The position numbers were made by a program, and so were the translations under genes. This document shows positions 43,418 through 64,000 of a stretch of 64,000 nt of DNA, piece after piece. The notes under the pieces were generated by a model. The model was not told where the DNA came from. It saw only the letters and a list, made by a program, of their open reading frames with translations, and searched no databases. The stretch covers positions 434,001-498,000 of the forward strand of contig NZ_FOAF01000002.1 in the NCBI RefSeq assembly GCF_900109575.1, read 5' to 3'. Source of the stretch: Olivibacter domesticus (GTDB taxonomy: Bacteria > Bacteroidota > Bacteroidia > Sphingobacteriales > Sphingobacteriaceae). Each line of letters starts with the position of its first letter. Positions within the stretch are counted from its first letter, which is position 1.

Positions 43418-44950
43418 CTAATTTAGCTTATCTGCTTGGTTCAGTCTCAATTTCAATTGTGCTTCAAATAATGATTGAGGACTGGCTTGTATTCCTTGGA
43501 GCTGATTTATTCCCTCATCTTCAAAAGTAATTTGACGATCAGCTTTAAAGCCCACAAAAACTGGCTTAGCAAAGGTATGGTTCCGCCTTCGATTAACATC
43601 CCAAAACTTATAATGAAAATCAAACGTAGATTGATGTTTGAAATTCCAGAAAACCAAATACTTTCCATGATGTGGTAAGCCGGGCAATGGTCCTCCAATG
43701 TTTTTAAAAATGCCCCCAGTGGTATTATCGAATAGTGTTGCATAGGGCTGTCCGGAATGACTATCAATATTTTGGTCGGGTTGCATGATACAATTAGTGA
43801 TTACCGTTCCCACTCCCCCATAACCTGTTCCCGGGCCGTGATGATTCCCTGCTTCAAAACGGCAATTATTTATCAATACGCCGTAACCTCCACGTGCATG
43901 AACAGAGCTATGCCCTTTTTTACCTGTGAATACAACATTATCTACACTAACTTTATAACCTGCACGAATGAAAATACCCTCGTTCATATTGTTAAACACA
44001 CAATTTTTGATCCAACTATCGGTTACATATTCCATAGAAACTCCGCACCAACCGCTGTCGTGAATTGCATTCTTATGATGTTCAAACTGCTCTGGGTATT
44101 GATTCCAATTCCCAGAAAACATAATATCTTCTATACCACATTCGCTAATTGCCGTAAATGAATGCAGTTCAAAATCCGCATCTTTTATTCGTATAATATC
44201 TAGATGAATTGGATTTTTGAATTTCACGCGTTTCCCTTCAATCTTTTCGATCGTATGTATTTCAGCAATTCTCATCCCTCCTTTTTCCCCAAACAATCTC
44301 GTCCATTCATCTGCTAAGGGAAGATCGCCGAAATAATGTCTCGTATATGTTTCACTTTGATGGCTTAATACGACCTGTTTCCCGATTTCTAAACGACTTA
44401 AATCATCTACTTCTACCCAAAAACTTTCCCTTAAAGCATCTGCTTTTATTGTAGCGATTTTTTTTTGCCCAGGGGAGATAGGACTGAAATGAAATTGTCT
44501 TTTACCTATGCGCATGCTGTCCATCAGGATCTCTGTCCCTCCTTTGCCAGCCCCACTTCCTTTTAATATGATATTGCTACTGGAGATCTCGATACTTTTG
44601 CTATTATCACTATCTGGACTAATATTATATCTTCCTTTGGGGAAGAATATCACTCCTCCACCAGCCATTTGAGCGGCGTCTATTGCTTTTTGTATAGCTA
44701 AGTCATCGTATTTACCATCGTCGGGCAAAGCGCCATAGTCAAGCACGTTAAAATAACGAATTTCCGAAACATCGGGTAATGGTTTTTCAGAAAAATGATA
44801 ACCAGCAAAAGAGAAATCAGGTAAAAAAGGAGTTTCTCCTTTTGCCTTTGCCGCTACATAGTCGTTCCAAAGCGGCGCTAGCGTTTGAGCGTAAATATTG
44901 CAATTCAGTAGCGCTAATTTTAAACAAAAAAGGCAGATAAAAATCTTCAT
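43418..44950 (-). CDS. secreted parallel beta-helix protein, candidate polysaccharide lyase
   Basis: The 510-residue protein has a signal peptide (FICLFCLKLALLNCNIYAQ). The pectate-lyase-superfamily opening NVLDYGALPDDGKYDDLAIQ (about residue 68) continues as a right-handed helix with GIEDIMFSGNWNQYPEQFEH, GIFIRAGYKVSVDNVVFTG and HHGPGTGYGGVGTVITN. It resembles the DUF4955-type pectate-lyase-like proteins of Bacteroidota, for which I know no established reaction. Conserved-looking His, Arg and Asp residues cluster in the central coils. It follows the GH88-beta-helix fusion by 22 bases and resembles that protein's C-terminal half in layout, so the two probably act on the same glycan. Confidence 0.75.
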   Translation of the reverse strand: MKIFICLFCLKLALLNCNIYAQTLAPLWNDYVAAKAKGETPFLPDFSFAGYHFSEKPLPDVSEIRYFNVLDYGALPDDGKYDDLAIQKAIDAAQMAGGGVIFFPKGRYNISPDSDNSKSIEISSSNIILKGSGAGKGGTEILMDSMRIGKRQFHFSPISPGQKKIATIKADALRESFWVEVDDLSRLEIGKQVVLSHQSETYTRHYFGDLPLADEWTRLFGEKGGMRIAEIHTIEKIEGKRVKFKNPIHLDIIRIKDADFELHSFTAISECGIEDIMFSGNWNQYPEQFEHHKNAIHDSGWCGVSMEYVTDSWIKNCVFNNMNEGIFIRAGYKVSVDNVVFTGKKGHSSVHARGGYGVLINNCRFEAGNHHGPGTGYGGVGTVITNCIMQPDQNIDSHSGQPYATLFDNTTGGIFKNIGGPLPGLPHHGKYLVFWNFKHQSTFDFHYKFWDVNRRRNHTFAKPVFVGFKADRQITFEDEGINQLQGIQASPQSLFEAQLKLRLNQADKLN

Positions 44951-44972
44951 AAAACATCCTTATTTATAATTG

Positions 44973-47672
44973 CTATTTATTTGATCGCACTTGGGCTTCG
45001 TATAAAGAAGGTATCTCTAATTTTTCCGCGTTATGGCCTTCCCATACTCCGTCAGGCCTTTCTGAAAGTCTGCCCTCGTATTTCCCCCCTTTTAAACCAA
45101 TGCTATAATTTTTGCCTGCGCCCCAAGGATTTTGTACAGCAGCTCTTTTAACAGTGCTCGCCCAGATTATTTGCGTTACACCAGCCCAACCATGACCGCT
45201 ACCCCAATTCCCTCTATCTTGCACATTGATTTCTCCATCTGTAGTGATATTGTCGTAGAGTGTACCTACCGCCCAACGATGGTGTGGCCCGATATCAGCA
45301 TGTGTTCGTTCCGCTTTACAGTTATAAAAAACGTTAGGTCCCAGCACCCGAGCACCTGTAACGTAATCATGCCGTCCCTCCGTAGCAAACAAATTCATAA
45401 ATAGATTTAGCTGTCCGTTATTATTAAAAGAATATCTTCTACCTCCTGTAATGATGGATTTTGCGTCCAAACAGCTTGAATTTAATACGCTTATTTGTTT
45501 CGCCCCACTTTCTAAACTAACTGCAGCATATCCAAAATATTTAGCGGTTATATTGCGGATCCAAGCGTTTTCTATTTTATCGAAACTAACAGCTATCCAT
45601 CCATGATCTTCATCTTCTTCACCTACATAATCTGATTCAAACAGTATATTTTCAATGCCCACCTCCTTGATTCTTCCATCAAAGCTATAATGATAGATTG
45701 CTCCCCCGCCAAATCGTTTATCCATTGCCATTAAAATAGGATTATCGAGAAAAACTTTATTACCTTCTATTTTAGTTATGGTTCTCTCGAATTTCAGGTC
45801 ATATTCGGCCGCTTTCCATTGCTTCGTACCTTCTCTTGCTACAATTTTATCCATGTGTATAGCGCGGATCCAGGTTTCTGTACCGGGCCTAAGTAAGATA
45901 ATTTTATCCCCCTCTTTAAACGCCTTCGTAGAAGCGATACTAAACGAATGAGCACCTACAGGTACGTAATCATCTGTAATTTCTTGCTTACTGTCTAATT
46001 CTTCTTGCATCACACCCTTTCCTGAAGCGATGATAAGTGATCTTTTTCCCTTACCAGATGCTATGAGCTTAGTGCCTCGATCACCATTCTCTTCTCCTTT
46101 CAAAACAATTCCACTGGCGTTGATTTTTATTGTTCCCGGAATGTTATATACCCCCTTTTTTAAAAGTATAGCTCCCCTAAAACCTTTATTATCGGGCCTC
46201 ATAGCAGACACTTTATCAATAGCCTCCTGGATCTGCTGCGGATCTTTCCCCTCTTTGGAAGGGTATAGTGTAATTTTCACAGAAACATCAGGGATTTCAT
46301 TTCTACCCTGATGATAACCCACTCGGCTAAAATCTGGTATTGTATTCCCTTTTTCATCGGCAAAATATAATAGCTCTCCTGCCGGACTAAGCTTTACATA
46401 ACGTGAAGTAACAAACCCGTCATTTAACTTTTTTCTTCTCTGCAATGCCTCCAAAAAATAATAATCTGCATAGCTGAGCGGCTTATCCACTTCCGTTCCA
46501 GAAGGTTTGGAACCCGTGCTATGCAATAAGATAAAGCCTTTATTTTCACCTTTTCTGGCCAGATAATGCTGTGATAGACTATTTATTATTTTATCTGCCC
46601 GTTGAAGATACAGCTCCTTTTCTTTGCTAAAAGTGCTTAACTCATACAAAGCTGAAGCAATCACCGTTGCAGCAGAAACATCACGCGGTTCATTGGGAAT
46701 CTCCGGTGCATTGAAATCCCAATAGGGTACTCCATCGGCAGGCATATTGGGATGGTTAAACAGCCACTTTGCTACCCGATCTGCTTGATTCAAATAACGC
46801 AGATCACCCGTTTCACGGTAGCACATCGTATAACCATATAGTGCCCATGCTTGTCCGCGCGACCAAGTCGATTCATCTTGATAACCTTGATGAGTGTTCC
46901 TCTTCCTTACCGCACCCGTATTAGGATTGTAATCGATTACATGATAGGTACTGTAATCAGCCCGAAAATGGTTCTTCATGGTGGTGTTGGCATGGCTAAC
47001 AGCTATTTTATAAAAGGAAGAGTCGCCCGTTAGTTTTGTGGCCTCGAATAACAACTCTAGGTTAAGCATATTATCGATAATAACAGGAAAATCCCATTTG
47101 TCGCTATTGTGGTCCCATGACCTTATGCAACCAACGGTTGGATTAAACCGAGTAGACAATGTTTTTGCAGCTTGTATAAGAATCTTTCTGTAATTGGTAT
47201 CACTGCTCAATCGATAACCATTCCCTACACTGCAATAGATCTTAAAGCCCATGTCATGGGTTTTACCATTGTATTGTTCGTCTTGTATCAAAGCCGTATA
47301 TTTTCTTGCAGCCTGCTCCCAAGTTGAATCTTTTGTGTGCGCATATAAATACCACAGCACACCGGGAAAAAAGCCGCTTGTCCAATCACTTCTTTTTACG
47401 GCTATTAGTTTATCGTTCTCATTTAGTGATCTAGGTGATACGAATGATGAATCTATATTACGAACCGCATTTATTTCAGACAACATCAATTTTGACTGAG
47501 TCGCTGCAAGTTCCCAAACGTTATCTTCCTGAAAAGTTGACTGTGCGGCGCTCATTTGTATGCACGTAAACAAAATGATACAGATGATTGAAAATATTTT
47601 TTTATGGAAGTGAATCTTTTTGTCCTTTCCATTGCGACAGCTATCGCTTTTATTGATGAAAGCTGGGTTCAT
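44973..47672 (-). CDS. GH88 unsaturated glucuronyl hydrolase fused to a parallel beta-helix domain
   Basis: The 899-residue protein has an N-terminal extension and signal (KIFSIICIILFTCIQMSAAQ). Residues about 48-415 are a GH88 (alpha/alpha)6 barrel. The two catalytic aspartates stand in GKTHDMGFKI (Asp140) and PVIIDNMLNLEL (Asp200); the 60-residue spacing equals that of unsaturated glucuronyl hydrolase. WSRGQAWALYGYTM follows. Residues about 455-899 form a pectate-lyase-like beta-helix (RGAILLKKGVYNIPGTIKIN, ENAWIRNITAKYFGYAAVSL, HHRWAVGTLYDNITTDGEIN). A lyase-like and an unsaturated-sugar hydrolase in one chain suggest cleavage followed by end trimming. The catalytic role of the helix half is inference. 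Confidence 0.85.
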   Translation of the reverse strand: MNPAFINKSDSCRNGKDKKIHFHKKIFSIICIILFTCIQMSAAQSTFQEDNVWELAATQSKLMLSEINAVRNIDSSFVSPRSLNENDKLIAVKRSDWTSGFFPGVLWYLYAHTKDSTWEQAARKYTALIQDEQYNGKTHDMGFKIYCSVGNGYRLSSDTNYRKILIQAAKTLSTRFNPTVGCIRSWDHNSDKWDFPVIIDNMLNLELLFEATKLTGDSSFYKIAVSHANTTMKNHFRADYSTYHVIDYNPNTGAVRKRNTHQGYQDESTWSRGQAWALYGYTMCYRETGDLRYLNQADRVAKWLFNHPNMPADGVPYWDFNAPEIPNEPRDVSAATVIASALYELSTFSKEKELYLQRADKIINSLSQHYLARKGENKGFILLHSTGSKPSGTEVDKPLSYADYYFLEALQRRKKLNDGFVTSRYVKLSPAGELLYFADEKGNTIPDFSRVGYHQGRNEIPDVSVKITLYPSKEGKDPQQIQEAIDKVSAMRPDNKGFRGAILLKKGVYNIPGTIKINASGIVLKGEENGDRGTKLIASGKGKRSLIIASGKGVMQEELDSKQEITDDYVPVGAHSFSIASTKAFKEGDKIILLRPGTETWIRAIHMDKIVAREGTKQWKAAEYDLKFERTITKIEGNKVFLDNPILMAMDKRFGGGAIYHYSFDGRIKEVGIENILFESDYVGEEDEDHGWIAVSFDKIENAWIRNITAKYFGYAAVSLESGAKQISVLNSSCLDAKSIITGGRRYSFNNNGQLNLFMNLFATEGRHDYVTGARVLGPNVFYNCKAERTHADIGPHHRWAVGTLYDNITTDGEINVQDRGNWGSGHGWAGVTQIIWASTVKRAAVQNPWGAGKNYSIGLKGGKYEGRLSERPDGVWEGHNAEKLEIPSLYEAQVRSNK

Positions 47673-47683
47673 AAATAAAAAAA

Positions 47684-49573
47684 TTAAGGAGTGATAGGGA
47701 TTAATTGGATTTCAAATAATTTCATAAGCTCATCGCCTTTTATATCATCCGCTCTCAGGATGATTTCTGTTGATTCTTCGTCTAACGCAACTTCGCCGAG
47801 CTCTTCTAATACAAATGGCTTATTTGGTGGATTCTCTTTTGTGAGCGCCTTTATAACCTTATCATTTATTTTAAATGCATAGTTATTGCCTACACCTTCC
47901 GCCACGTATTTAATAGATATTTTAAACTTAGTAGGTTTTAGTACACGCACCCGCCATTGTATTTCTTGCTGTGTACTTTTCCAGCCTTCTACATAATATC
48001 TATTTGATTTCCCGTCACCATATTTAAATCCGTCCCCTATTAACGTTGCATCAAAAGATAAGAGCCGATTAATATTTGTAGACGACAACAGTCGAACGGA
48101 ATCGGCCAATACAACGGTATCTTCCATTTCAATTACCACAACCGTATTAACGGGATCTTGCCCATCCAATGGTGTTTCAATACGTACATCTTCTTGCGTA
48201 ATTCTTTCATTGCGTAAAGATTTTTGTTGTGAGTCATTTAATAAATAAACCTTACGTATGGCATTTTTCAAACCGCCAACGATCAGCCTTCCATCTCTTG
48301 GCCATTCGAAAACATGTAAGTAAAGCTTGTTGGCATGCTGTGTGCTCACGCCCCAAGATTGTAGAGACAACGGGGTAGGTTTCGTATCAAAAATACTCTC
48401 CTTATTCTTATCCATCCATAAACCAATGCTATCTAATATTTTCGTATCTTTTGGATCAAAGGCACCATCCCCCATGGGGCCAATATTCATAAGAAGATTT
48501 CCACCTTTCGAGGCTGCTTTTGCAAGCAATTGAATAAAGAAAGATGCAGGCTTGTGGCTATGATCATATTTTGAATATCCATAAGATTCGTTTGTGGTTG
48601 GTATAGCTTCCCAATCACCTTTAACAGGAAAAAATTCTGCAGGCCTGTCAGCCGTATTTTGATAATCGCCAAAATTACCTTGGGCGCTACGTGCCAACCT
48701 ACCATTCACCACTACATTGGCATCTACTGCTCTGATCGCTTTTAATATGCGTAAATTCTCTGAAAAAGGCAATTTGTGGGGTGTATCGAACCAAAGTATA
48801 TCGGGATGGTACTTTTTCAGTAGTTCCTGTATTTGCGGTATTGACTTTTCATTTACGTATTTTACCGCTTTAGGAAGCCATTCTGGATGGTCATCATACC
48901 AATTGGCTCCTCCTATTAGCTTGTCGCCTCCTGGATTATCATATTCCCAATCATTCCCTGGCGCATCCGGATGTTCCCAATCAAAAGCATGCGAATAATA
49001 AAAGCCGAATTTCATATCGTGTTTCCTGCATGCATCTGCAAGCTCCTTCATTGGGTCTCTCTTAAAGGGTGTTTGCTTGATGATATTGAAAGCTGAAAAA
49101 TCGGTATCATACATTGCAAAACCATCGTGGTGTTTAGCAGTAATAATAAAATAATTCATCCCAGCTTTTTTAGCCGCTAACACCCATTCTTCTGCATCAA
49201 ACTTGCTTGGATTAAATTGAGCCGCAAGCTTCAAATAGTCTTCGCGACTTATTTTTTCTTTTCGCATCAAATGTTCCGCATATCCACCCACTTCTTTTCC
49301 TTTCCACTCCCCACCCGCCAACGAGTATACTCCCCAATGGATAAACATCCCGAACTTGGCTTCCCTCCACCAAACGATACGCTGATCATGCGACTGCATA
49401 GAGGTCGTCCACCATCCGTCTTTCGCCTCCCGTATGGCTACCAAATCTCTTTCTTTTGGGTCATTGTACATCTTTGCTCCTTCATCACCGACATCCTGTG
49501 CGTACAATCCTGTATTTAGTATCCAAGAAAAACTAAGTAACAGAAGGAGTATGATGTATTTTCTTTTTTTCAT
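47684..49573 (-). CDS. GH29 alpha-L-fucosidase (long form)
   Basis: The 629-residue GH29 protein has a signal peptide (YIILLLLLSFSWILNTGLYA) and a catalytic barrel (about 65-430) with WWREAKFGMFIHWGVYSLAGG, YFIITAKHHDGFAMYDTDFS and HPDILWFDTPHKL, where the aspartate is the expected nucleophile. The C-terminal ~200 residues are beta-rich (MEDTVVLADSVRLLSSTNIN), probably accessory domains. It removes alpha-L-fucose. The gene is 11 bases before the GH88 fusion and shares its transcript. A second, shorter GH29 lies at the other end of the cluster. Confidence 0.93.
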   Translation of the reverse strand: MKKRKYIILLLLLSFSWILNTGLYAQDVGDEGAKMYNDPKERDLVAIREAKDGWWTTSMQSHDQRIVWWREAKFGMFIHWGVYSLAGGEWKGKEVGGYAEHLMRKEKISREDYLKLAAQFNPSKFDAEEWVLAAKKAGMNYFIITAKHHDGFAMYDTDFSAFNIIKQTPFKRDPMKELADACRKHDMKFGFYYSHAFDWEHPDAPGNDWEYDNPGGDKLIGGANWYDDHPEWLPKAVKYVNEKSIPQIQELLKKYHPDILWFDTPHKLPFSENLRILKAIRAVDANVVVNGRLARSAQGNFGDYQNTADRPAEFFPVKGDWEAIPTTNESYGYSKYDHSHKPASFFIQLLAKAASKGGNLLMNIGPMGDGAFDPKDTKILDSIGLWMDKNKESIFDTKPTPLSLQSWGVSTQHANKLYLHVFEWPRDGRLIVGGLKNAIRKVYLLNDSQQKSLRNERITQEDVRIETPLDGQDPVNTVVVIEMEDTVVLADSVRLLSSTNINRLLSFDATLIGDGFKYGDGKSNRYYVEGWKSTQQEIQWRVRVLKPTKFKISIKYVAEGVGNNYAFKINDKVIKALTKENPPNKPFVLEELGEVALDEESTEIILRADDIKGDELMKLFEIQLIPITP

Positions 49574-49796: not shown

Positions 49797-50981
49797 TCAA
49801 AACCAAATAATAGGATTTCTAATAGGCAAGTTTCTGATAAGCTCTTCTATTTGCGGCTTGTGATCCAACTTAAGCCACACATCGAACCATTCTTTCTGTT
49901 TATATGCACTTGCAGAAAACAATAAGGAAGGTTGTGCAACAGGCCAATTATCCCAATACATCACATCTTTTGGGTAGGGCCAGTTCGCTTTGTTTTCAAC
50001 ATACGGAAACATAAATTCCATTCCTTTTTTAATAGAACGGCCATCAACGAGCTGAAAATTCCATAAATTATCTTCTGGCGTAGAAAGTATTTGACAGAGC
50101 ATAACCATAGCATCTAAGTTAAACAACGAATAACCGTAGGGCTTTGTACGTTTTAGCTCTCTTGGAAAAGCACCGTCCTTATCCATCTGATTGGGCAACA
50201 ACACTTCTTTATATCGCTCACGACAAAAATTAAGTAACTTCTCATCCCCTGTGAGTTTAGCAAACGACGCCACTTGCATGGTCCAGCACGTACCATGATT
50301 GTTTTCGGCATTCATTTCATCCAGACCATAGGGATGTGTTGTTAACCACTTAAGATAAGAAGAGAACCATCCCTTGATTTGTGTAAATAAGGTTACAGGA
50401 AAAGCAACTGAGCTCTTCATTACCAAAATACCTTGGGCAACCTCCATCAAGTGAATGGTATCAATAATGCCAATACCTCTGCCAGTAAATCTTCCCTTAA
50501 TGGCTTGTGCATACAAGAGATTTGGGTGCATCAGTGTTTGGGGATTTACAAACCAAGCTTCTAAATGTGTTAACGCCTGTTTAATATATTTTTCATCGCT
50601 AGTGAGTTTATATGCTGCAGCCAAGGCCCCTATGATCTGACTGAAACGTATCATTGCCCGACGGTGTGCCACGAAATTAGCTGGATTGGTCATGCCATCT
50701 TTTTGCACATAAGGTCCATTGGGATTCACTGGATCAGGCCACCAATAATCGCCTTCGGAAAAAAAGTCATGTTTACCCCCGGCACTTCGTGGTGATGTTT
50801 CGGCTGTAACCGTAATAGGTTGCTGTTGCATTGCCCATTGAGCTTGTTGTAAAATTTGCTTGCCTAAAATTTGCGCTGCTTGTTTTTCATAGGATATATC
50901 CACGGCCAAATCTGTCCAAGAAATACAAAAGATAGCCAACAGTAGGCATACATATGTTATATAGTGATTAAATCTCCTCAT
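49797..50981 (-). CDS. alginate-lyase-superfamily enzyme, PL38/PL5-like
   Basis: The 394-residue secreted protein has a signal region (YITYVCLLLAIFCISWTDLA) and an (alpha/alpha) barrel. EGDYWWPDPVNPNGPYVQKD opens the domain, LYAQAIKGRFTGRGIGIIDT follows, and NAENNHGTCWTMQV carries the Asn-Asn-His active-site pattern of PL5-type alginate lyases. Family PL38 members of this length degrade glucuronan (beta-1,4-glucuronic acid); alginate is the other option. Its unsaturated products would suit the neighbouring GH88. Its start overlaps the GH31 stop by 4 bases (ATGA), so translation is coupled. Confidence 0.85.
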   Translation of the reverse strand: MRRFNHYITYVCLLLAIFCISWTDLAVDISYEKQAAQILGKQILQQAQWAMQQQPITVTAETSPRSAGGKHDFFSEGDYWWPDPVNPNGPYVQKDGMTNPANFVAHRRAMIRFSQIIGALAAAYKLTSDEKYIKQALTHLEAWFVNPQTLMHPNLLYAQAIKGRFTGRGIGIIDTIHLMEVAQGILVMKSSVAFPVTLFTQIKGWFSSYLKWLTTHPYGLDEMNAENNHGTCWTMQVASFAKLTGDEKLLNFCRERYKEVLLPNQMDKDGAFPRELKRTKPYGYSLFNLDAMVMLCQILSTPEDNLWNFQLVDGRSIKKGMEFMFPYVENKANWPYPKDVMYWDNWPVAQPSLLFSASAYKQKEWFDVWLKLDHKPQIEELIRNLPIRNPIIWF

Positions 50982-53131
50982 GGCCTCGTCATAAATGTGA
51001 ATGTTACCTTTTCGATCGTATTGGGCTTCCCTTTTTCAGGCGGGGAAATTGTTCCTTCCAGTTTACCATCTTTTCCTTTTGCTACTTTTATGTCCCTAAA
51101 ACTGTATTGTCCATTCTCATAATTAAAGGTTTCTCCGTCATCATCATATAGTTTATATGATCCCGGTTTTTCTCCATAATATCGAATTTCTATTGGTACC
51201 TTCTCTCCCACCTTTGGTGCATGTAAGCGAGCGGGCATTAAGGGCACTATTCCACCATCTTTTACATAAACCGGAATTTTATCTAAACCGGGTGTGACCG
51301 TAAGAACCTCACCATCACCAACATATTTACCCGTATAGAAATCGTACCATTTACCTTTAGGTAGGATAACCTGACGAGTGGCCTGCCCGGTGAACAAAGG
51401 CGCTACCAATAGATTTTCTCCAGCCATATATTGATCCTTAACTTCTCTGTTCACTGCTTCCACATATGGATTTTTTTCTAAATCAATTGTTTCTACCGCT
51501 TTGGATGCATTGACAGAAAATCCATCTTCCAAATTCATTGCCCTGAATGGCGGTGTTCCTTCAAAATGATATTTTGCAAATTCACTGTACCAATAAGGCA
51601 TCATCCGCATACGTAAAAGTGCTGTCTCTTTTACCTGCTTTTCTACCTCCGGAAACGACCAGGGCTTTGTGCCGCTTGCCCAAGCATTAATCATCGCCAT
51701 CGGAGAGAATATGTTCGATTGAAAGCGCCTCAACCATTCCTCACCTGTTTTAGAGGCTCTTACTTCTGGTGTCCACAGTACGCCCGCAAAGCCGCTATTG
51801 ATCAGTGCCGTAATAAAATCTTCGTGTTTATAGTAATCATTATAAATCACATAAGGAAAAGAAACACCACCCGCATTCGAACCACGCACTAAACCGTAGG
51901 TTCTGGTATTTGAGCGCCGATACATCTCAGTGCTATAACGCTGTACAAGCAAGCCATAGGTTTGGCGCATTTGCTCGCCCGTGATGCCCGACGGAAATGT
52001 AGCAACGTCAGGCCATAAGTATTGATCACCACCATCCACCTCATCAATTTTGTAACCACTTATTCCAATGTCCACTTGATCTTTTTTTAATTGAGAAAAT
52101 AGAATATCCCGGGCCTGAGCTGTATTCAGATCTGGAACGAGACCAACCCATACCGTGTGTGAACCTGTGAAAGGCGCGATACGTTGGAATATGGATGCGG
52201 CTGGTGATACATAAGGATTGGTCCATAGATTCAGTCGTATTCCTTTTTTCAACAAACCTTGCACAAATTCTTCAGGTTTTGGAAAACGCTCTTTATCCCA
52301 TTCAAAGGTACAAGGGTACGATTTACTTTGCCAACCGGGTTCAAGGCCAACAAAATCGAGGGGATATCCTTTTTCTTCAAAAAGATTTACCTCTTCTTCT
52401 ACTTCTTGTGCATTGTATAAACGCTGAACCCTTTGTGTAAAACCAAGACCCCAGCGAGGAGGGAGTACCCCACCTCCGTTAAACAGATTAAATCTGCGTA
52501 CGGCATCGATAGGTTTAGGGCCACCAAAAATATACAGCTCTACTCCTTCTGTCGGCACCAGTATTTCTACCGCATCTGAATAAGGTCTGGAAGTCCACGA
52601 TTTATCGATATTTCGATCTTTCGCTTCAGGTGGGTTTTTACTATCCTTCCTTGCTGCAGATCCTGCATAAACATCCAAATACCTAGCCGAGTTAATAAAA
52701 ACGCCATAACCATTTGAGGAAATATAAAAAGGGGTTGGTGCATGCGTTCTACCGTTATCGCTTCCACCGTAATGATCAACATGAAGCCTCATAATTCTCC
52801 CTCGCTGATGCACAGTCTGAAAATTTAGACCGAAACCATACAGCTGTTCTTTTTTGTCGAGCGGGAAACGTAGATAGGTTTTCCCGTCAACCAATTTCAC
52901 CTCTATTTCATTTTCGGATAATGGAAATGTTGTCCTTCCCAATTGTTGAAGAGATTGCTCCCGTGGTTTAGCTCCAGCGGCTGATAGTAAATTATAAGCT
53001 TCCGGTGTGCCTACTATGGCTTTCCACACACCGGGTTGGATTTCTGTCCATTGGATTTTTTGGCAAAACCCAAACTGCACTGTTAATATCCCTATAGATA
53101 ACATTAACAAACAGTATCGTAATTTCATCAT
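50978..53131 (-). CDS. GH31 alpha-glycosidase
   Basis: The 717-residue GH31 protein has a signal peptide (YCLLMLSIGILTVQFGFCQ), an N-terminal beta-sandwich (QLYGFGLNFQTVHQRGRIM) and a catalytic barrel with PPRWGLGFTQRVQRLYNAQE and ISGYKIDEVDGGDQYLWPD (nucleophile aspartate). The predicted acid/base aspartate is in YVIYNDYYKHEDFI, a setting unlike the common WSGDN. GH31 covers alpha-glucosidases, alpha-xylosidases and alpha-galactosidases; I cannot choose. It is translationally coupled to the downstream lyase and 79 bases after GH95. Confidence 0.92.
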   Translation of the reverse strand: MMKLRYCLLMLSIGILTVQFGFCQKIQWTEIQPGVWKAIVGTPEAYNLLSAAGAKPREQSLQQLGRTTFPLSENEIEVKLVDGKTYLRFPLDKKEQLYGFGLNFQTVHQRGRIMRLHVDHYGGSDNGRTHAPTPFYISSNGYGVFINSARYLDVYAGSAARKDSKNPPEAKDRNIDKSWTSRPYSDAVEILVPTEGVELYIFGGPKPIDAVRRFNLFNGGGVLPPRWGLGFTQRVQRLYNAQEVEEEVNLFEEKGYPLDFVGLEPGWQSKSYPCTFEWDKERFPKPEEFVQGLLKKGIRLNLWTNPYVSPAASIFQRIAPFTGSHTVWVGLVPDLNTAQARDILFSQLKKDQVDIGISGYKIDEVDGGDQYLWPDVATFPSGITGEQMRQTYGLLVQRYSTEMYRRSNTRTYGLVRGSNAGGVSFPYVIYNDYYKHEDFITALINSGFAGVLWTPEVRASKTGEEWLRRFQSNIFSPMAMINAWASGTKPWSFPEVEKQVKETALLRMRMMPYWYSEFAKYHFEGTPPFRAMNLEDGFSVNASKAVETIDLEKNPYVEAVNREVKDQYMAGENLLVAPLFTGQATRQVILPKGKWYDFYTGKYVGDGEVLTVTPGLDKIPVYVKDGGIVPLMPARLHAPKVGEKVPIEIRYYGEKPGSYKLYDDDGETFNYENGQYSFRDIKVAKGKDGKLEGTISPPEKGKPNTIEKVTFTFMTRP

Positions 53132-53210: not shown

Positions 53211-55781
53211 TTATAAAGGAACAATCGTATAGCGTTTTCCCTTTTCCGTTTGAAAATCTAACACATAGGTATCTTTAATATTTAATTTTTGTAGAGATGC
53301 CGTTCCATTCCGCTTATACAATAATTCCTCCGGCTCTTGTGTGAGGACATTCCCATTATTCCCTTGTGCTGTTTTTGTGGTAATTTCTACCACTTTTACA
53401 GGGATAGGTGTTCGAAGCCTACAATTTCCTCCTACATTCGCCTCTATAGTCGCGTTTCGTAGATTCCCCTGATTCCAATCTATATCGACTGTAAAATTCC
53501 CGCGTGCTTTAATACCCTTTATGGAGCCAGTTGGCCAGGCATCTGGCAATGCAGGAAGTAATTGAATTTCGCCGGCATGGCTTTGAAGGAGCATTTCGGT
53601 CATACCTGCTGTAGCGCCAAAATTGCCATCTATCTGAAAAGGTGGATGTGCATCAAACAGATTCGGATAGGCGCCTCCTCCACTCATTTGCTCCTTTTCA
53701 AGTTTAGGGTCTATATACCTTAATGCATCTTTTAGTATTTTGTAGGCATGGTTACCATCTTGCAAGCGCGCCCACCAGTTAGTTTTCCACGCCATAGACC
53801 AACCGGTACTCACATCACCTCTATGAATAAGCGATTGCTTTGCGGCCGCAGCTAGTTCAGGTGTGTGTTTAACTGATATTTGATTACCTGGATATAGGCC
53901 AAAGAGCTGCGAAATATGTCGATGTTGATCTTTTGGATCATCCCAGTCTTGATACCATTCCTGTAGCTGGCCATATTGACCAATTTGATAAGGATATAGG
54001 CGAGCCTTTGCTTTTTCTAACTTCGCCCTGAAGGCACCATCGATATTTAAAATAGTCGAGGTTTTTATACAAGCAGTAAACAATTCCCGGATGATAGCCA
54101 TATCCATGGTTGTAGCCATACTTAATTGGTATTCCTTTCCTTTTATCTTTACGGTATTTTCAGGCGAGGTAGCCGGGTTTGTAATGAGGTAATTGCTATT
54201 TGGATCGTCAATAAGCCAAGACAACATGAACTCGGCGGCACCTTTCATCAAAGGATACGCTTCCTCTTTTAGAAAAACCTGATCACCCGTAAAAAGATAA
54301 TGTTCCCATAAATGTGAACAGAACCATGCCCCTGCCATGGGCCAAGCCGACCAACGTGGCATTCCCTTCGGGTCCCATTCATAACCTCCTGGGGGTGATG
54401 TTTTCGCCCATAGATCCGAATTATGATGTGTAACCCACCCTTTTTGGATATTATAATTTACTTTAGCCGTTATTGCTCCATTAATAGCCAATTCATTCAT
54501 GAAATCGAACAATGGCTGGTGGCATTCCGATAAATTGGTGTTTTCTGCCAACCAATAATTCATCTCTGTATTGATATTCGTTGTATAATTGCTTCCCCAA
54601 GGTGGTTGTACTTTGTCATTCCAAATACCTTGCAAGTTCGCAGGGCGGCTTCCTGGTCTAGAACTGGAAATAAGCAAATAACGGCCAAATTGATAGTACA
54701 AAGCTTGAAGTGCATTGTCAGTTTTACCAAAAGCTAACCGGAGCATGCGTTCATTTATAGGAAGTTTTAATGCTTCGACATCGGTACCAAGGTCAATGGA
54801 AACGCGTTGAAATAAGGATGTATAATCTTCCACATGCGTCCTTTTAAGATCTTCGTATTGTTGGCTCATCACTTTATTCATCAGTGATGTAGCCTCCATA
54901 GCAGGATCTTTGCCCGCTAGACCCGGCGATTTATCAAAGCCATTAAAGCTGGTAGCTTCTGTAAGGAATAAGGTAACTGTGCTTGCATCGGTAACGACCA
55001 ATTTATCGGCTGAAGCATGTACCTTTCCGCCTGCTGCTTTTACCCTTAAGTGAACTTCAAAATTCATTCCTTCTCCTGTCAAATCTTTATCATATACAAT
55101 TTGATTAGACTCATAATCGCGGTTAGCAACAAATTTCGGTGCTTTTCCACGGAGCACTAAGTAATTGTCTTCAACTGATTTTGTTTGATATTTTAATTTA
55201 CTAGTAAGTGAGGCTTTAAAACGAATAGCATGTGGTTTATCAGCGGTAATCTTTATCGCCATTACCTTATCAGGCCAACTGGTAAATGTTTCGCGTGTAT
55301 AAGTAACTCCTTTATAGGTGTATTTTACTGTGGATGTTGCATTTTGAAGATTTAAATCTCGCTTGTAGTAAGTCGTAGTAGTATCTTGTCGGCCGAAATC
55401 AAGCAGTAGGTCTCCTAAGGGCAGGTACCTGGCCGAATAGGGTCCTTGCATTTTTTTCCATAAAGCAGCAGCTTTTTCGTAGTCACCATTGAACATGGCT
55501 TTCCTTACTTCGGGAAGCACTTTAGGCCCATTATCGTTATTACCAGGATTTGGAAAGCCTGACCATAAGGTATTGTCATTAAGTTGATAGCGTTCTATAT
55601 TTATTCCGCCAAATACCATAGCTCCAGTTTTAGCATTCCCTAGTGGTAGTGCTTCCTCCCATATGGAAGCTGGTTTTGTATACCAGAGTGTAAGACGATC
55701 GTCCTGCTTCTGACCTCTGACTGTTAAGGCCAGCAAAAGGCAGCATAGGAGCATAAAAAGAGATGTTTTAAATTTATTCAT
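53211..55781 (-). CDS. GH95 alpha-L-fucosidase / alpha-L-galactosidase (second PUL copy)
   Basis: The 856-residue GH95 protein has a signal peptide (TSLFMLLCCLLLALTVRGQ), LPLGNAKTGAMVFGGINIER, NYTTNINTEMNYWLAENTNL (asparagine pair) and DAHPPFQIDGNFGATAGMTE. It shares the family core with the GH95 at 24317, but the insert PGGYEWDPKGMPRWSAWPM near the active-site entrance differs, so substrate preference may differ. It removes terminal L-fucose or L-galactose. In this cluster it accompanies two GH29 fucosidases, which suggests fucose in more than one linkage. Confidence 0.93.
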   Translation of the reverse strand: MNKFKTSLFMLLCCLLLALTVRGQKQDDRLTLWYTKPASIWEEALPLGNAKTGAMVFGGINIERYQLNDNTLWSGFPNPGNNDNGPKVLPEVRKAMFNGDYEKAAALWKKMQGPYSARYLPLGDLLLDFGRQDTTTTYYKRDLNLQNATSTVKYTYKGVTYTRETFTSWPDKVMAIKITADKPHAIRFKASLTSKLKYQTKSVEDNYLVLRGKAPKFVANRDYESNQIVYDKDLTGEGMNFEVHLRVKAAGGKVHASADKLVVTDASTVTLFLTEATSFNGFDKSPGLAGKDPAMEATSLMNKVMSQQYEDLKRTHVEDYTSLFQRVSIDLGTDVEALKLPINERMLRLAFGKTDNALQALYYQFGRYLLISSSRPGSRPANLQGIWNDKVQPPWGSNYTTNINTEMNYWLAENTNLSECHQPLFDFMNELAINGAITAKVNYNIQKGWVTHHNSDLWAKTSPPGGYEWDPKGMPRWSAWPMAGAWFCSHLWEHYLFTGDQVFLKEEAYPLMKGAAEFMLSWLIDDPNSNYLITNPATSPENTVKIKGKEYQLSMATTMDMAIIRELFTACIKTSTILNIDGAFRAKLEKAKARLYPYQIGQYGQLQEWYQDWDDPKDQHRHISQLFGLYPGNQISVKHTPELAAAAKQSLIHRGDVSTGWSMAWKTNWWARLQDGNHAYKILKDALRYIDPKLEKEQMSGGGAYPNLFDAHPPFQIDGNFGATAGMTEMLLQSHAGEIQLLPALPDAWPTGSIKGIKARGNFTVDIDWNQGNLRNATIEANVGGNCRLRTPIPVKVVEITTKTAQGNNGNVLTQEPEELLYKRNGTASLQKLNIKDTYVLDFQTEKGKRYTIVPL

Positions 55782-55980: not shown

Positions 55981-58449
55981 CTACTCCAACATTACAAAAG
56001 CTGTCTTCAATTCGTCTGATTTTGCACTTACTACACATTTATTTCCTGTTAATTTAACCTTAATAATTGCTCTTCCATTGTAGGCTTGCACTTTGCGGGA
56101 TCCGTCAGAAGTACCTTGATCTGCTATTAATATACCATCGCCTGCTGCCGAGAAATTTACCCAATTCTGCGCATCTAAGCACTTTACCCCTTTAGCATCT
56201 AAGAAAGAGACTTGAATAGTTGCCACATCATCTTGCTGATGAATTTTTTCGAAGATCATTTTCTGCGGCTTGCCCCATTTTGCAGTTTGATAAACCTGAT
56301 TGATTTCATCTGTTAATACTTTCCCCCCAATTTTTGTCATTGCCTTTATTTGATTTGTTCCCTCTTTAAGTTTTACCATCCAACGTAATCCAGCAGCTGG
56401 AAAATCCTGACTATTTCTTTTCTTTGTACCATAATTTTCACCGTTGACAATGAGTGTTACTTCCTCTGCATTTGAGTATACTTTTATCATCTTTTCTTCT
56501 TCCTTTTCTCCCCATCTAATCGGCCAGGAATGTCCATAGATATGTACCATCGGTGTGTTTGTCCAATATGATTGAAACACATAGTATGCTTCCTTTTTGT
56601 TAAGGTTACGTTCTACTACTCCCTTTTGATTCACGTAGGGTACCGGATTATCTGGCCTAACGGGTGTAGAAAAATCTTTAAAAGGCCAATAGGCGGAACC
56701 GGTAAGCCAAGGCATTGTTTCTTGTTCCTTTAAATGCCAATCGATCAAATTACAGATGTAGCTCTCGCTCCAGTCACCATCTTTTGAAACCCTCGCGGCA
56801 CCACCAAATAATGAAGCATCACCCGAGCGTTCATCCGTACCTTTGCCACCGGTCACCTCCGCTAATATCTTATCAGGATTTTCAGCATGCCTTCTTGCAT
56901 GGCTATCCCCTCCCCATTCTACATGCAAAAAGTGGTTCACCTTTTTCATTTCGTCTTCTGACGATTGTTTATAATCGGTGTACAAGCCCCTGTACCAGCC
57001 AGCCCAAATAGAAGGCGAATAGACATCCACGATGTCTTTACAAAAATCACATCTTCTGATAGCCGTTTTTCTCGATGAATCCAGTTGATGAGAAAGATCA
57101 TTTAATTCCATCATAAAATCCCTGATCTTCTCTTTATCAAAAACAGAGAAATCACCGGGCCAATCATTTTCATTACCTAATCCCCATATAATAATTGCTG
57201 GATGATTATAATGCTGCTCAATCATGTTGGTTAACATCCTTCTTGCCTGTTCTTTATAAACATCTCCTCCTATTCCGCCGCGGCACCAGGGGATTTCCTC
57301 CCAAACCAATATTCCAAGGCTATCACAGGCATTTAACACCACCCGCGACTGCTGATAATGTCCCAAACGAATGAAGTTAACACCCATTTGTTTCATCATA
57401 TCCATCTCCTTAAGAATCATGGCATCTGACATCGCCGCTCCTACACCTGCATGATCTTCGTGCCGATGCGTGCCGCGTAACAGTAAGCGCTTGCCGTTTA
57501 GTAAAAACGGTCCTTTTTCTTTGAACTCAAAATGGCGAAAGCCAATTTTTGTAGTACTTACATACGGTTCATCGGCGTTATTTAAGGTCAGAACGAGTGT
57601 ATACAAATCAGGTTTATCAGGACTCCATAATTGAGGTTTTTTAACTAGCAATGCCTCTATATTAATTTCACTGGCCGAAATAGAAGGTGTTTCCTCAAGA
57701 TTTGCTACTTCCCTTCCCTTTGGATCCAAAAGCTTTACCGACAGCTTTCCTATCTTTTCTGATGTGTGATTTAAAAGTCGTGTTTTTATAGCGATTTTCC
57801 CTTCTTTTCCTTTTTCATCTACTTCAGTATGAGCAAAGACCTTGTCGATCGACAAAGCCGGAATATATTGTAAATTAAGGTGACGATAGATTCCACCATA
57901 AAGATTAAAATCAGCTAGATCTGAGGGGATCATTTCCAAATCCCTAGAATTGTCCGCACGAATAGAAATAGGCACTTCTCCCTTAAATTGTTCTTTGCAG
58001 ATGGAAGTCTCCTTAAATGCTTTTACCGCATCCGTAATATCTATTGTCCATTCGTCATACCCGCCCACATGCTCGCCAACTTTTGTGGTATACACATAAA
58101 CAGCTGTTTTCTGACCAGCTCCTTCAAAATGAAGCAAGGTACGACCCTTATTATAAGGATTCTCAATCGATAAATTTTTACGATACCAACCTGGTCCCTG
58201 ATAATAGTTCACATCCGGGTCTACCGCATCCGTTGCGTTAAAACAATGAGGAAGATCAACGGTCTCCCATAACGGAACGGATTCTGGATCACCTTTTCCT
58301 ACCGGCCTAACGGCTTCCCAAATACCACCTAAATCGCTTTTTAAAAATTCCCATTTTTTGTCGATACGGCTAGCCTGTTGCCCCTGCGAGGTGCAAAAAG
58401 TTCCTATTAAAAAGAATGTATATAGTAAATAATATTTAAATATAACCAT
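55981..58449 (-). CDS. GH2 beta-glycosidase (beta-galactosidase/beta-glucuronidase type)
   Basis: The 822-residue GH2 protein has a signal peptide (FKYYLLYTFFLIGTFCTSQ), a sugar-binding jelly roll (about 28-200), an immunoglobulin-like domain (205-305) and a TIM barrel (310-600). The acid/base glutamate is Glu427 in IIWGLGNENDWPG, and the nucleophile is Glu511 in FLHVEWGGDSHAR. Two C-terminal beta domains include VTLIVNGENYGTKK. GH2 members cleave beta-galactosides, beta-glucuronides or beta-mannosides; with GH88 and a PL38-like lyase nearby, beta-glucuronic acid is a fair guess but not proven. Confidence 0.92.
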   Translation of the reverse strand: MVIFKYYLLYTFFLIGTFCTSQGQQASRIDKKWEFLKSDLGGIWEAVRPVGKGDPESVPLWETVDLPHCFNATDAVDPDVNYYQGPGWYRKNLSIENPYNKGRTLLHFEGAGQKTAVYVYTTKVGEHVGGYDEWTIDITDAVKAFKETSICKEQFKGEVPISIRADNSRDLEMIPSDLADFNLYGGIYRHLNLQYIPALSIDKVFAHTEVDEKGKEGKIAIKTRLLNHTSEKIGKLSVKLLDPKGREVANLEETPSISASEINIEALLVKKPQLWSPDKPDLYTLVLTLNNADEPYVSTTKIGFRHFEFKEKGPFLLNGKRLLLRGTHRHEDHAGVGAAMSDAMILKEMDMMKQMGVNFIRLGHYQQSRVVLNACDSLGILVWEEIPWCRGGIGGDVYKEQARRMLTNMIEQHYNHPAIIIWGLGNENDWPGDFSVFDKEKIRDFMMELNDLSHQLDSSRKTAIRRCDFCKDIVDVYSPSIWAGWYRGLYTDYKQSSEDEMKKVNHFLHVEWGGDSHARRHAENPDKILAEVTGGKGTDERSGDASLFGGAARVSKDGDWSESYICNLIDWHLKEQETMPWLTGSAYWPFKDFSTPVRPDNPVPYVNQKGVVERNLNKKEAYYVFQSYWTNTPMVHIYGHSWPIRWGEKEEEKMIKVYSNAEEVTLIVNGENYGTKKRNSQDFPAAGLRWMVKLKEGTNQIKAMTKIGGKVLTDEINQVYQTAKWGKPQKMIFEKIHQQDDVATIQVSFLDAKGVKCLDAQNWVNFSAAGDGILIADQGTSDGSRKVQAYNGRAIIKVKLTGNKCVVSAKSDELKTAFVMLE

Positions 58450-58604: not shown

Positions 58605-60059
58605 TCAATCCAGCGCCCCGCTTTTCATTTGCTTTTTCGGTACTGCATGATTTGCTTCCGCTATTTTTCCTTTCAGTTCGAGCTTAATCACGCTCGCAAT
58701 CTTATCCGGTGCATTCGCAGGTAACTCAAGTGAAAATCCTTCCTTCGTATTGATCCCTTTCAATTTTTGATCAGTAGCTAAAAGTTTCGCTGAAGAAATT
58801 TTATTGGTAATACCGGGAATAGATAGCTTCCCATCGGCTGGCCAATCAAATACTGATAAATAAAGTATGGTATTGTCGCCCGCTGCTTTCATCGTGCATC
58901 TACCCCAAGTAAGAGGTGTTAAGGGACTAGCTTTTGTAGTATAAATAGCTTCACTGTTTACCTTCATCCAATCACCAATTTGCTTCAATCTTTCTATGCT
59001 TTGCTCGGGGAACGTGCCATCCGGTTTCGGACCTACGTTCAAGAGATAATTGCCTCCTTTAGAAGCGATGTCAATCAGATTTCTTATTAATGTCTCGGTA
59101 GATTTCCATTTATTGTCAGACGTACGATAACCCCATGTACCATTCATCGTCATACAAGTCTCCCAATATTTTCCATCTAATTCACTCAAATCCGGTATTT
59201 TCTGTTCAGGTGTTTTAGTATCGCCAGGGAAGTTGGGACGTTTTAGCCGATCATTGGTGATGATATCCGGTTGCAATTTCAATTGTGCTTGCAGCTTCAT
59301 CGCTGCTTGATCCGTCATATTCGTTGGCGTATCCCACCAAAGTACGGCAATGTCGCCATAATTTGTCATAAGCTCCTTTACTTGTGGCACAGAAACGCGA
59401 TCAATGTATTCATCAAAAGTACTCGTTTCCTGTGCGGGATCCCAGTGCCCCTTATGCGCTAGGGTATATGCATCTATTCGTGCGGAATCAGGATTCGGCC
59501 AACCCTCTCGCATCTCCTTTCGTGCTGCCGATCCTCCTGGATTATTCCAATCTTGCGCTTGGGAATAATAAAAACCGAGCTTGATTCCATATTTTCTACA
59601 GGCCTCTGCCAATGGTTTTAATAAATCTTTTCCATGAGGAGTAGCATCTACCACATTCCATTTGCTAGCGGCTGATTTAAAAAGCGCAAATCCATCATGA
59701 TGTTTGGCGGTGATAATAAGATACTTCATACCCGCTTCTTTAGCCATTCGTACCCATTCATCGGGATCATAATTTATCGGATTGAATTCTTTTGCCATAT
59801 CCTGATATTCAGAAACCGGTATTTTAGATCGGTTCATTATCCATTCTGCTCCCCCTCTTGCTTGCTCATGTCCCTTATAAACACCTGCAAACTGGGCGTA
59901 AACACCCCAGTGGATAAACATACCGAAGCGTGCTTCTGTCCACCACTTCATTCGTTCATTATCCTTCTCAGTCCGCTTTTGTGCATGGGCTAGTCCCGTA
60001 GAAAGTATGATGCAAATAAGCACCCAATATACCCGTCGTAGTTGCTGAAAGCTTTTCAT
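58605..60059 (-). CDS. GH29 alpha-L-fucosidase (short form)
   Basis: The 484-residue GH29 protein has a signal peptide (RVYWVLICIILSTGLAHAQ), MKWWTEARFGMFIHWGVYAQ, YLIITAKHHDGFALFKSAAS and DIAVLWWDTPTNM with the expected nucleophile aspartate. It lacks the long C-terminal extension of the GH29 at 47684; the last ~120 residues form a single beta domain. It is the first intact enzyme gene after the broken SusC/SusD pair (28 bases from the susD remnant), so its transcription probably starts at the susC promoter. Confidence 0.93.
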   Translation of the reverse strand: MKSFQQLRRVYWVLICIILSTGLAHAQKRTEKDNERMKWWTEARFGMFIHWGVYAQFAGVYKGHEQARGGAEWIMNRSKIPVSEYQDMAKEFNPINYDPDEWVRMAKEAGMKYLIITAKHHDGFALFKSAASKWNVVDATPHGKDLLKPLAEACRKYGIKLGFYYSQAQDWNNPGGSAARKEMREGWPNPDSARIDAYTLAHKGHWDPAQETSTFDEYIDRVSVPQVKELMTNYGDIAVLWWDTPTNMTDQAAMKLQAQLKLQPDIITNDRLKRPNFPGDTKTPEQKIPDLSELDGKYWETCMTMNGTWGYRTSDNKWKSTETLIRNLIDIASKGGNYLLNVGPKPDGTFPEQSIERLKQIGDWMKVNSEAIYTTKASPLTPLTWGRCTMKAAGDNTILYLSVFDWPADGKLSIPGITNKISSAKLLATDQKLKGINTKEGFSLELPANAPDKIASVIKLELKGKIAEANHAVPKKQMKSGALD

Positions 60060-60087: not shown

Positions 60088-60663
60088 TTAAAATCCTGGT
60101 GTTTGCTTATAGCCTTCATTTCCCAGACTTTTTGCAATGTCTACTTCCGACTGCGGCACTGGCCACAAAGTATCTCGCGCTTGAAATAAACGTGATGCAC
60201 CGTCAGGATCCTGTGTATTATCCATTACTTCTTTAACAATACCCCATCGCTTTAAGTCAAAATACCGTTGGCCTTCTAATGCTAATTCTACTCTCCTTTC
60301 CTGCCGTATCAGTCGCTGCATCTCTTCCTGCCCATATCCATCATTTAAACTAAGAGCAGGCATATTTACATCTGCTCTTGATCTTACCTGATTAATCGCA
60401 TCCACGACAGATTGATCAGGACCTGATACTTCATTTCTTGCTTCCGCATACATTAACAACACATCTGCATATCGTAAAAATACCCAATCCTGATCACTTT
60501 GCGTAGCGTAACTGGTAGGCCATTTCGTTTCATTGATATACTTTCTTGGTAAATATCCTCCTAATACATTTTCAAAAACAGGGTCAAAGGCAGAAGAAGC
60601 ATCTGTTCCACGCCAAACGCCTTCGTAGATAATAGATGCTTTAAGCCTGGGATCCCTATTTGA
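60088..60663 (-). pseudogene. susD: C-terminal fragment of a SusD gene
   Basis: A 191-codon frame reads NRDPRLKASIIYEGVWRG, KYINETKWPTSYATQSDQDW, FLRYADVLLMYAEARNEVSG, RVELALEGQRYFDLKRWGIV and ends QTPGF. These are the standard last third of a SusD protein. The expected signal peptide, lipobox and first ~300 residues are missing. The frame starts at a stop codon within the preceding susC fragment, one base out of its phase. It cannot make a functional lid protein. It is 28 bases upstream of GH29 and co-directional, so it marks where an intact susCD pair once opened this PUL. Confidence 0.9.
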
Positions 60664-60941
60664 TCAACAGGTACTTCTTGACTAGCCATTCCAATCTGAC
60701 TAAATATGAGTATGTCGCTCGATGTCGCCTGAACTTGGAACAAGCCATTAACATCGGTAGTAGTACCTTGTCGTTTTCCTTTTACCCGTACACTCACACC
60801 GGGTGCAGTTTCCCCATTAGTAGTCGTTACCTTTCCAGATATATGTATGACTTCTTGTGCTAAAACGACGGTAAAAAAACAACTACTGAAACTTAAAAAA
60901 AAAGCTATGATATATAGCCCAAAAACAAATTTCCCTTTCAT
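60660..60941 (-). pseudogene. susC: N-terminal fragment of a SusC gene
   Basis: An ATG at 60941 starts a signal peptide (FGLYIIAFFLSFSSCFF ending VVLAQ) and a carboxypeptidase-like regulatory domain (ISGKVTTTNGETAPGVSVRV, TTTDVNGLFQV, DILIFSQIGMASQEV). At about residue 94 the similarity stops and the DNA continues as the susD fragment in another frame. The nominal frame runs on 32 meaningless codons to a stop at 60561. Plug and barrel, some 900 residues, are absent. A single deletion joining susC codon ~94 to the middle of susD explains both fragments. Confidence 0.9.
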
Positions 60942-60972
60942 CTTAAAAGTTTATGCGGTTAGCCATTATTAG

Positions 60973-61037
60973 GTTAATGGGACAAAAATCACAATCCACA
61001 GCAAATTTTAAGGGTATTTTTTGGTCTTTCTAGGGGT
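60973..61037 (-). promoter_or_regulatory. control-region repeat A, upstream of the broken susC
   Basis: About 65 bases (GTTAATGGGACAAAAATCAC through ATTTTTTGGTCTTTCTAGG) recur at 63936-64000 in the same orientation with about eight substitutions and one indel. Copy A starts 32 bases upstream of the susC remnant. Likely promoter and/or HTCS binding region of the second PUL. The rest of this 320-base spacer (to 61261) shows no gene. Confidence 0.6.
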
Positions 61038-61261
61038 AGAAAATGGTTTATGGGTTATTCTGACTCTATTTTTAGGTCAATGGATAAATTCAGCCTTTAC
61101 TTACTGTAATCCTTTATCGCTTTTGTTAATTAGGTATTATCCAACATAACAATAGATAGCACAATTTCTCTTTTAAAAGGTCTTACTTTTCGTATCATCC
61201 TACTCTTTGCTGAAAGAGAGGGTCAACATATCACTTATAATAACGTGTTAGTTTTACTGAA

Positions 61262-63935: not shown

Positions 63936-64000
63936 GTTAATGGAACAAAAATCACAATATACAACAATTTTAAGAGCATTTTTTGGTCTTTATAGGTGCA
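63936..64000 (-). promoter_or_regulatory. control-region repeat B at the right window edge
   Basis: Second copy of the ~65-base element at 60973-61037 (GTTAATGGAACAAAAATCAC through TTTTTTGGTCTTTATAGG). No susC-like start lies to its left; stem-loops and then the MscS gene follow. It may be the remains of another PUL promoter or the start of a further PUL gene group beyond the edge. Confidence 0.6.

Follow-up and report, generated by a model that had tools for sequence, protein, structure and literature searches.

The window, as the whole stretch of 64,000 nucleotides analysed here is called (G000:C12:434001-498000), belongs to Olivibacter domesticus and contains a PUL formed by an enzyme operon with an HTCS regulator and, at its head, the remnants of one susC and one susD gene (Table 1). 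The eight enzyme genes and the regulator lie on one strand, a co-directional CAZyme operon with its dedicated regulator. The adjacent intact susC-susD pair of a PUL is missing, both genes being truncated and no second pair being present in the operon. An earlier note on this DNA had called the nine downstream genes intact, and the eight enzymes and the HTCS are indeed all open with their domains present. Judged from the enzyme families, the substrate would be a fucose- and uronate-containing glycan.

Table 1. Features of the PUL and of its head, in positions of the window
Feature	Position	Strand	Evidence
HTCS hybrid two-component regulator, 1403 aa, intact	39138..43349	-	domain match
DUF4955 / pectate-lyase-like protein, 510 aa, intact	43418..44950	-	domain match
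GH88-like protein with second C-terminal part, 899 aa, intact	44973..47672	-	domain match and relatives
Second GH29-type fucosidase, 629 aa, intact	47684..49573	-	domain match
Alginate-lyase-family protein (PF05426), 394 aa, intact	49797..50981	-	domain match
GH31, 717 aa, intact	50978..53131	-	domain match
GH95, 856 aa, intact	53211..55781	-	domain match
GH2 glycosidase, 822 aa, intact	55981..58449	-	domain match
Alpha-L-fucosidase GH29, 484 aa, intact	58605..60059	-	domain match
susD 3' remnant, 190 codons and stop, no start or lipobox	60088..60661	-	domain match, O. jilunii comparison
Deletion junction	60659..60665	-	alignment to relatives; microhomology of a few A/T bases possible
susC 5' remnant, ~93 codons, signal peptide and CarboxypepD_reg_2	60663..60941	-	translation, domain match, O. 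jilunii comparison
Retained promoter region 5' of susC	60942..61062	-	80% identity over 105 bp to the stretch ahead of the intact O. jilunii susC; Sphingobacterium heads aligned
Second promoter-region copy, no susC behind	63936..64000	-	84% over 76 columns

The product of 60941-60663 begins with a signal peptide, recognised by eye, and the 126-aa fusion ORF to which it belongs (P0001) matches CarboxypepD_reg_2 in residues 34-94 (E 3.5e-13). CarboxypepD_reg models were its sole matches in the domain search, which found no plug or beta-barrel domain of a SusC/TonB-dependent transporter. The susC frame stops at 60561. The SusD C-terminus is read from 60661 in a different frame, out of frame with susC; its 190 aa match PF07980 positions 78-296 (E 3.2e-40) and are 86% identical to residues 331-522 of the SusD of Olivibacter jilunii. 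As a SusD lipoprotein this remnant is incomplete, with start and lipobox absent and only the said part of PF07980 covered. Domains and alignment agree with the earlier description of a susC start to about codon 94 fused out of frame to a susD end. An independent function of the 126-aa fusion protein is hardly credible: signal peptide and domain match are retained, but the final ~30 residues are an out-of-frame reading of susD and the protein is absent from every relative examined; its conservation there would, by the earlier note, have spoken against the loss reading.

The intact form of the locus is found in O. jilunii P8502 (G001, loci L033/L029), where a whole susC (1029 aa) and a whole susD (522 aa) occupy the equivalent position ahead of the orthologous fucosidase; the remaining three genomes of the genus gave no fucosidase match at E 1e-100. 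Homology to O. jilunii ends at window positions 60685/60661, corresponding to G001 C7 155921/152078 with 3842 bp between them. Measured on the O. jilunii genes, ~3.82 kb is missing, beginning at about codon 93 of susC and ending at about codon 332 of susD; this length falls within the 3.5-4 kb that had been estimated. A single deletion, proposed in the same place as the origin of the fusion, is supported by the intact and collinear pair of O. jilunii. Collinear intact orthologues, as expected for a deletion-derived pseudogene pair, are present in O. jilunii and in 18 Sphingobacterium genomes (SusD and fucosidase coordinates). Among the papers returned by word searches of the literature, none describes this susC-susD deletion in its title or abstract opening.

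The PUL of O. jilunii differs at its other end as well. Compared with window 43418-47672, O. jilunii L032:17860-19222 has no DUF4955 gene, and its GH88 protein is missing the C-terminal half found in the fusion (418 aa in O. jilunii vs 899 aa in O. domesticus); this sister species has lost another part of the PUL.

In the O. jilunii pair, the sequences around the two breakpoints have at most 9 bp in common. Direct or tandem repeats were considered as cause of the deletion and rejected, none being found, and the joining seems to have occurred without a long repeat. The junction sits within a 947 kb contig and its DNA is not repeated at length elsewhere in the O. domesticus genome (next best match 40 bp at 90%), which together with the at most 9 bp common to the breakpoint regions makes a repeat-driven misassembly unlikely. 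The assembly has 23 contigs and 4.17% contamination, which would favour an assembly error, the real chromosome carrying an intact pair; however, no repeat joins the breakpoints and the remainder of the pair is on no contig, and we regard such an error as very unlikely.

The promoter region of susC was retained. Its second copy, which is decayed, extends 9 bases beyond the window end (to L027:9009); its neighbours are an MscS-type channel gene (61262-63643) on one side and the last part of a SusCD-fasciclin cluster on the other. A promoter-region copy thus stands on either side of the MscS gene; in O. jilunii this gene is ~30 kb from the PUL.

No stop or frameshift was found in the 190 + 91 remnant codons compared. 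Amino-acid changes were counted, the synonymous distance between O. domesticus and O. jilunii being not computable for dN/dS, at sites invariant in the Sphingobacterium outgroup and as private to one or the other species. The susD tail has 7 changes in O. domesticus vs 2 in O. jilunii, the susC start 8 vs 4, and four enzymes 64 vs 59. The fragments together (15 vs 6) do not differ significantly from the enzymes (Fisher p = 0.15), and their point estimate leans to mild decay. Set against the divergence of the two species the deletion looks young, because stops and frameshifts are absent and the fragments have no significant excess of changes. The intact enzymes are as yet uninformative on continued use, and a young deletion would also fit a dying locus whose enzymes had too little time to decay.

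The fates considered in the earlier note were a borrowed importer, small products entering through other porins and a new inactivation; the first and the last stand. By pattern match, a lipobox is absent from 8/8 operon enzymes. The enzymes are therefore probably periplasmic and would need delivery across the outer membrane by an importer, and the entry of small products through other porins is disfavoured, as the operon, with no lipobox among its enzymes, has no obvious surface enzyme to make such products. The GH95 of O. jilunii matches the lipobox pattern.

A substitute importer was searched for in the O. domesticus genome, which contains 202 SusC-like matching stretches; among those listed, all but the fragment belong to open frames 992 aa or longer. 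Among the matches listed no close copy of the lost pair was found: the best-scoring SusCs (46% and 45%) are outside the pectin pairs of the window, and the best-scoring SusDs besides the remnant reach 40% and 42%. Relocation of the lost pair elsewhere in the genome was rejected on these identities. The SusCs of the two pectin pairs, one of which the earlier note had suggested as a possible donor, are 33-34% identical to the O. jilunii SusC orthologue. The pair at 64.9-69.4 kb, numbered onward beyond the window (L027:9891-14427), was tried as counterpart of a pair of Sphingobacterium puteale described below (pair A) and rejected, with 33% and 25%. Inspection of the genes around the paralogous pairs pointed to no clear donor candidate. 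Candidate substitute pairs are many in O. domesticus and none is singled out.

In Sphingobacterium the fucosidase was identified in 20/93 genomes (E 1e-200), and by coordinates the orthologous SusD stands immediately ahead of it in 18 of these 20, the exceptions being S. puteale and S. paludis; a nineteenth genome of the SusD search (G195) has a 44% paralogue only. SusC is 1029 aa long in 11/11 measured loci. Tandem pairs, A then B, precede the fucosidase in six loci (L038, L039, L047, L051, L052 and L056). S. puteale (L045) has kept pair A, which is 96.8-98.3% identical to pair A of the sister loci L038 and L051; pair B, the orthologous one, is gone: homology to L051 ends at L045:9926 and restarts at 9940 (L051 5613 and 9955), and the susC remnant has a frameshift in its signal peptide. 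A complete lack of importer in this species was rejected, tandem pair A being retained. As a separate observation, the GH95 of S. multivorum (L042:14013-15530) is open for 511 aa only vs ~856 in relatives, possibly by a frameshift.

In a triple with L038 and L051, the S. puteale branch had a dN/dS of 0.073 over five enzymes (3459 codons; bootstrap 0.063-0.084), and the sister branches 0.083 and 0.076. The S. puteale remnant gave an imprecise 0.41 (bootstrap 0.14-1.17), on which rests the ~0.36-0.41 expected of the enzymes if neutral since the loss. The dN/dS of the enzymes matches the sister branches and is below the neutral expectation, so they remained in use, a single pair still being present. 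The remnant changed at 10/51 sites vs 23/2271 in the enzymes (p 7e-10), a faster-evolving domain being set here against slow enzymes; the fairer within-gene test against sister L038 gave 10 vs 1 (p = 0.012). S. puteale is an inexact parallel, as it keeps a second tandem pair that the O. domesticus operon is without: its enzymes are under purifying selection after loss of the orthologous pair, yet with another pair alongside. The two separate deletions (O. domesticus 60663 and S. puteale L045:9926) cut susC at codons ~93 and ~105, both just 5' of what we take to be the TonB-box region; with two events the near coincidence may be chance.

For the exchange of importers, the loci taken were the best 80 of 306 and not a random census. 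The fucosidase had no orthologous SusCD adjoining in 28 loci, of which 20 were located and 19 extended (S. puteale was left out). All of these but S. paludis (18/19) have a same-strand SusCD pair upstream, at the head of the cluster. The head SusC of these loci is 26-30% identical to that of O. jilunii in 17 genomes and 43% in one, whereas their fucosidases are 69-75% identical to the one in the window. Pedobacter and Niabella clusters seemed to be without SusCD altogether with 10 kb flanks, which was rejected when longer flanks revealed the pair in 18/19 genomes. Over the 40 examined genomes with an orthologous fucosidase (O. domesticus, O. jilunii, 20 Sphingobacterium and 18 others), a SusCD pair was found at the cluster head in 38, the pair being counted from SusD alone in Sphingobacterium beyond the 11 measured loci. 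Among related genera, importer loss and exchange are recurrent for this enzyme cluster.

The rarity of clusters with no pair at the head is one of the points that make a new inactivation quite possible, though we do not think it probable; the importer would be gone and unreplaced, and the enzymes and regulator would be intact only because the deletion is recent. The pair is absent from the cluster head in O. domesticus and S. paludis alone among the 40 genomes, and of the genes tested for within 10 kb, S. paludis has only the fucosidase, GH2 and GH95; in the 6.7 kb ahead of its fucosidase no convincing susC, susD or promoter remnant was found (best match E 0.014, 29% over SusC 40-111, about L083:6967-7170). 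The lack of any SusCD in the operon, the modest identity of the best-scoring SusC paralogues listed and the lean of the fragment changes point the same way. On the other hand, all nine genes are intact, the four enzymes change no faster than those of O. jilunii, and redundancy of SusCD is documented in Bacteroides thetaiotaomicron (PMC7825182).

We rather favour the view that an exchangeable importer was lost recently, that the loss is tolerated and that another SusCD pair provides the supply. The PUL would have lost its own importer through one ~3.82 kb deletion that left promoter region and enzyme operon in place, so transcription from the susC promoter could continue through the dead fragments into the enzyme genes, although ~470 nt of untranslated susD could exert polarity on them. 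With susCD removed and promoter and enzymes intact, the enzymes must be fed by another importer or head for loss. The loss would be tolerated since the importer is an exchangeable part, and another of the many SusCD pairs most likely feeds oligosaccharides to the probably periplasmic enzymes.

A broader and more speculative reading is that SusCD heads are plug-in modules, the enzyme cluster being inherited whole while its head is repeatedly swapped, doubled or cut and the enzymes are fed from elsewhere. Equally tentatively, cuts at susC codons ~93 and ~105 might spare promoter, leader and N-terminal domain and so keep the enzymes on. If true, headless PULs would be a recurrent, selectable state and not a dying one. 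PUL annotation presumes that the enzymes and the importer of a single locus act jointly. Among the related genomes the pair is variously present, doubled, swapped, deleted beside a remaining second pair or deleted with no other remaining, a natural series by which importer redundancy becomes testable.

The locus resembles the Sus-like PULs with HTCS of Bacteroidota in its enzyme operon, its 3' HTCS and the susC promoter region at its head, and differs from them in that the defining SusCD pair is deleted. A close case is S. puteale, where the same pair was deleted, susC was cut at about codon 105 and promoter region and enzymes were kept; there, however, a second tandem pair was left, the remnant is decayed and frameshifted, and the cluster, as in Sphingobacterium generally, is without GH31 and the second GH29. 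The laminarin PUL of an NS4 MAG is an example of a PUL or CAZyme cluster without susCD (PMC10108472); it shares with O. domesticus the grouped enzyme genes and the absent pair, whereas the O. domesticus remnants reveal how and where the pair went. In B. thetaiotaomicron, deletion of the susCD of one mannan PUL left growth and uptake unimpeded, and import was wholly lost only in a triple susCD deletion (PMC7825182). The likeness is that one PUL's enzymes can be supplied through a pair encoded in a different PUL; the difference is that those deletions were engineered and followed by growth and uptake assays, whereas in O. domesticus the deletion is natural and the supply is presumed.
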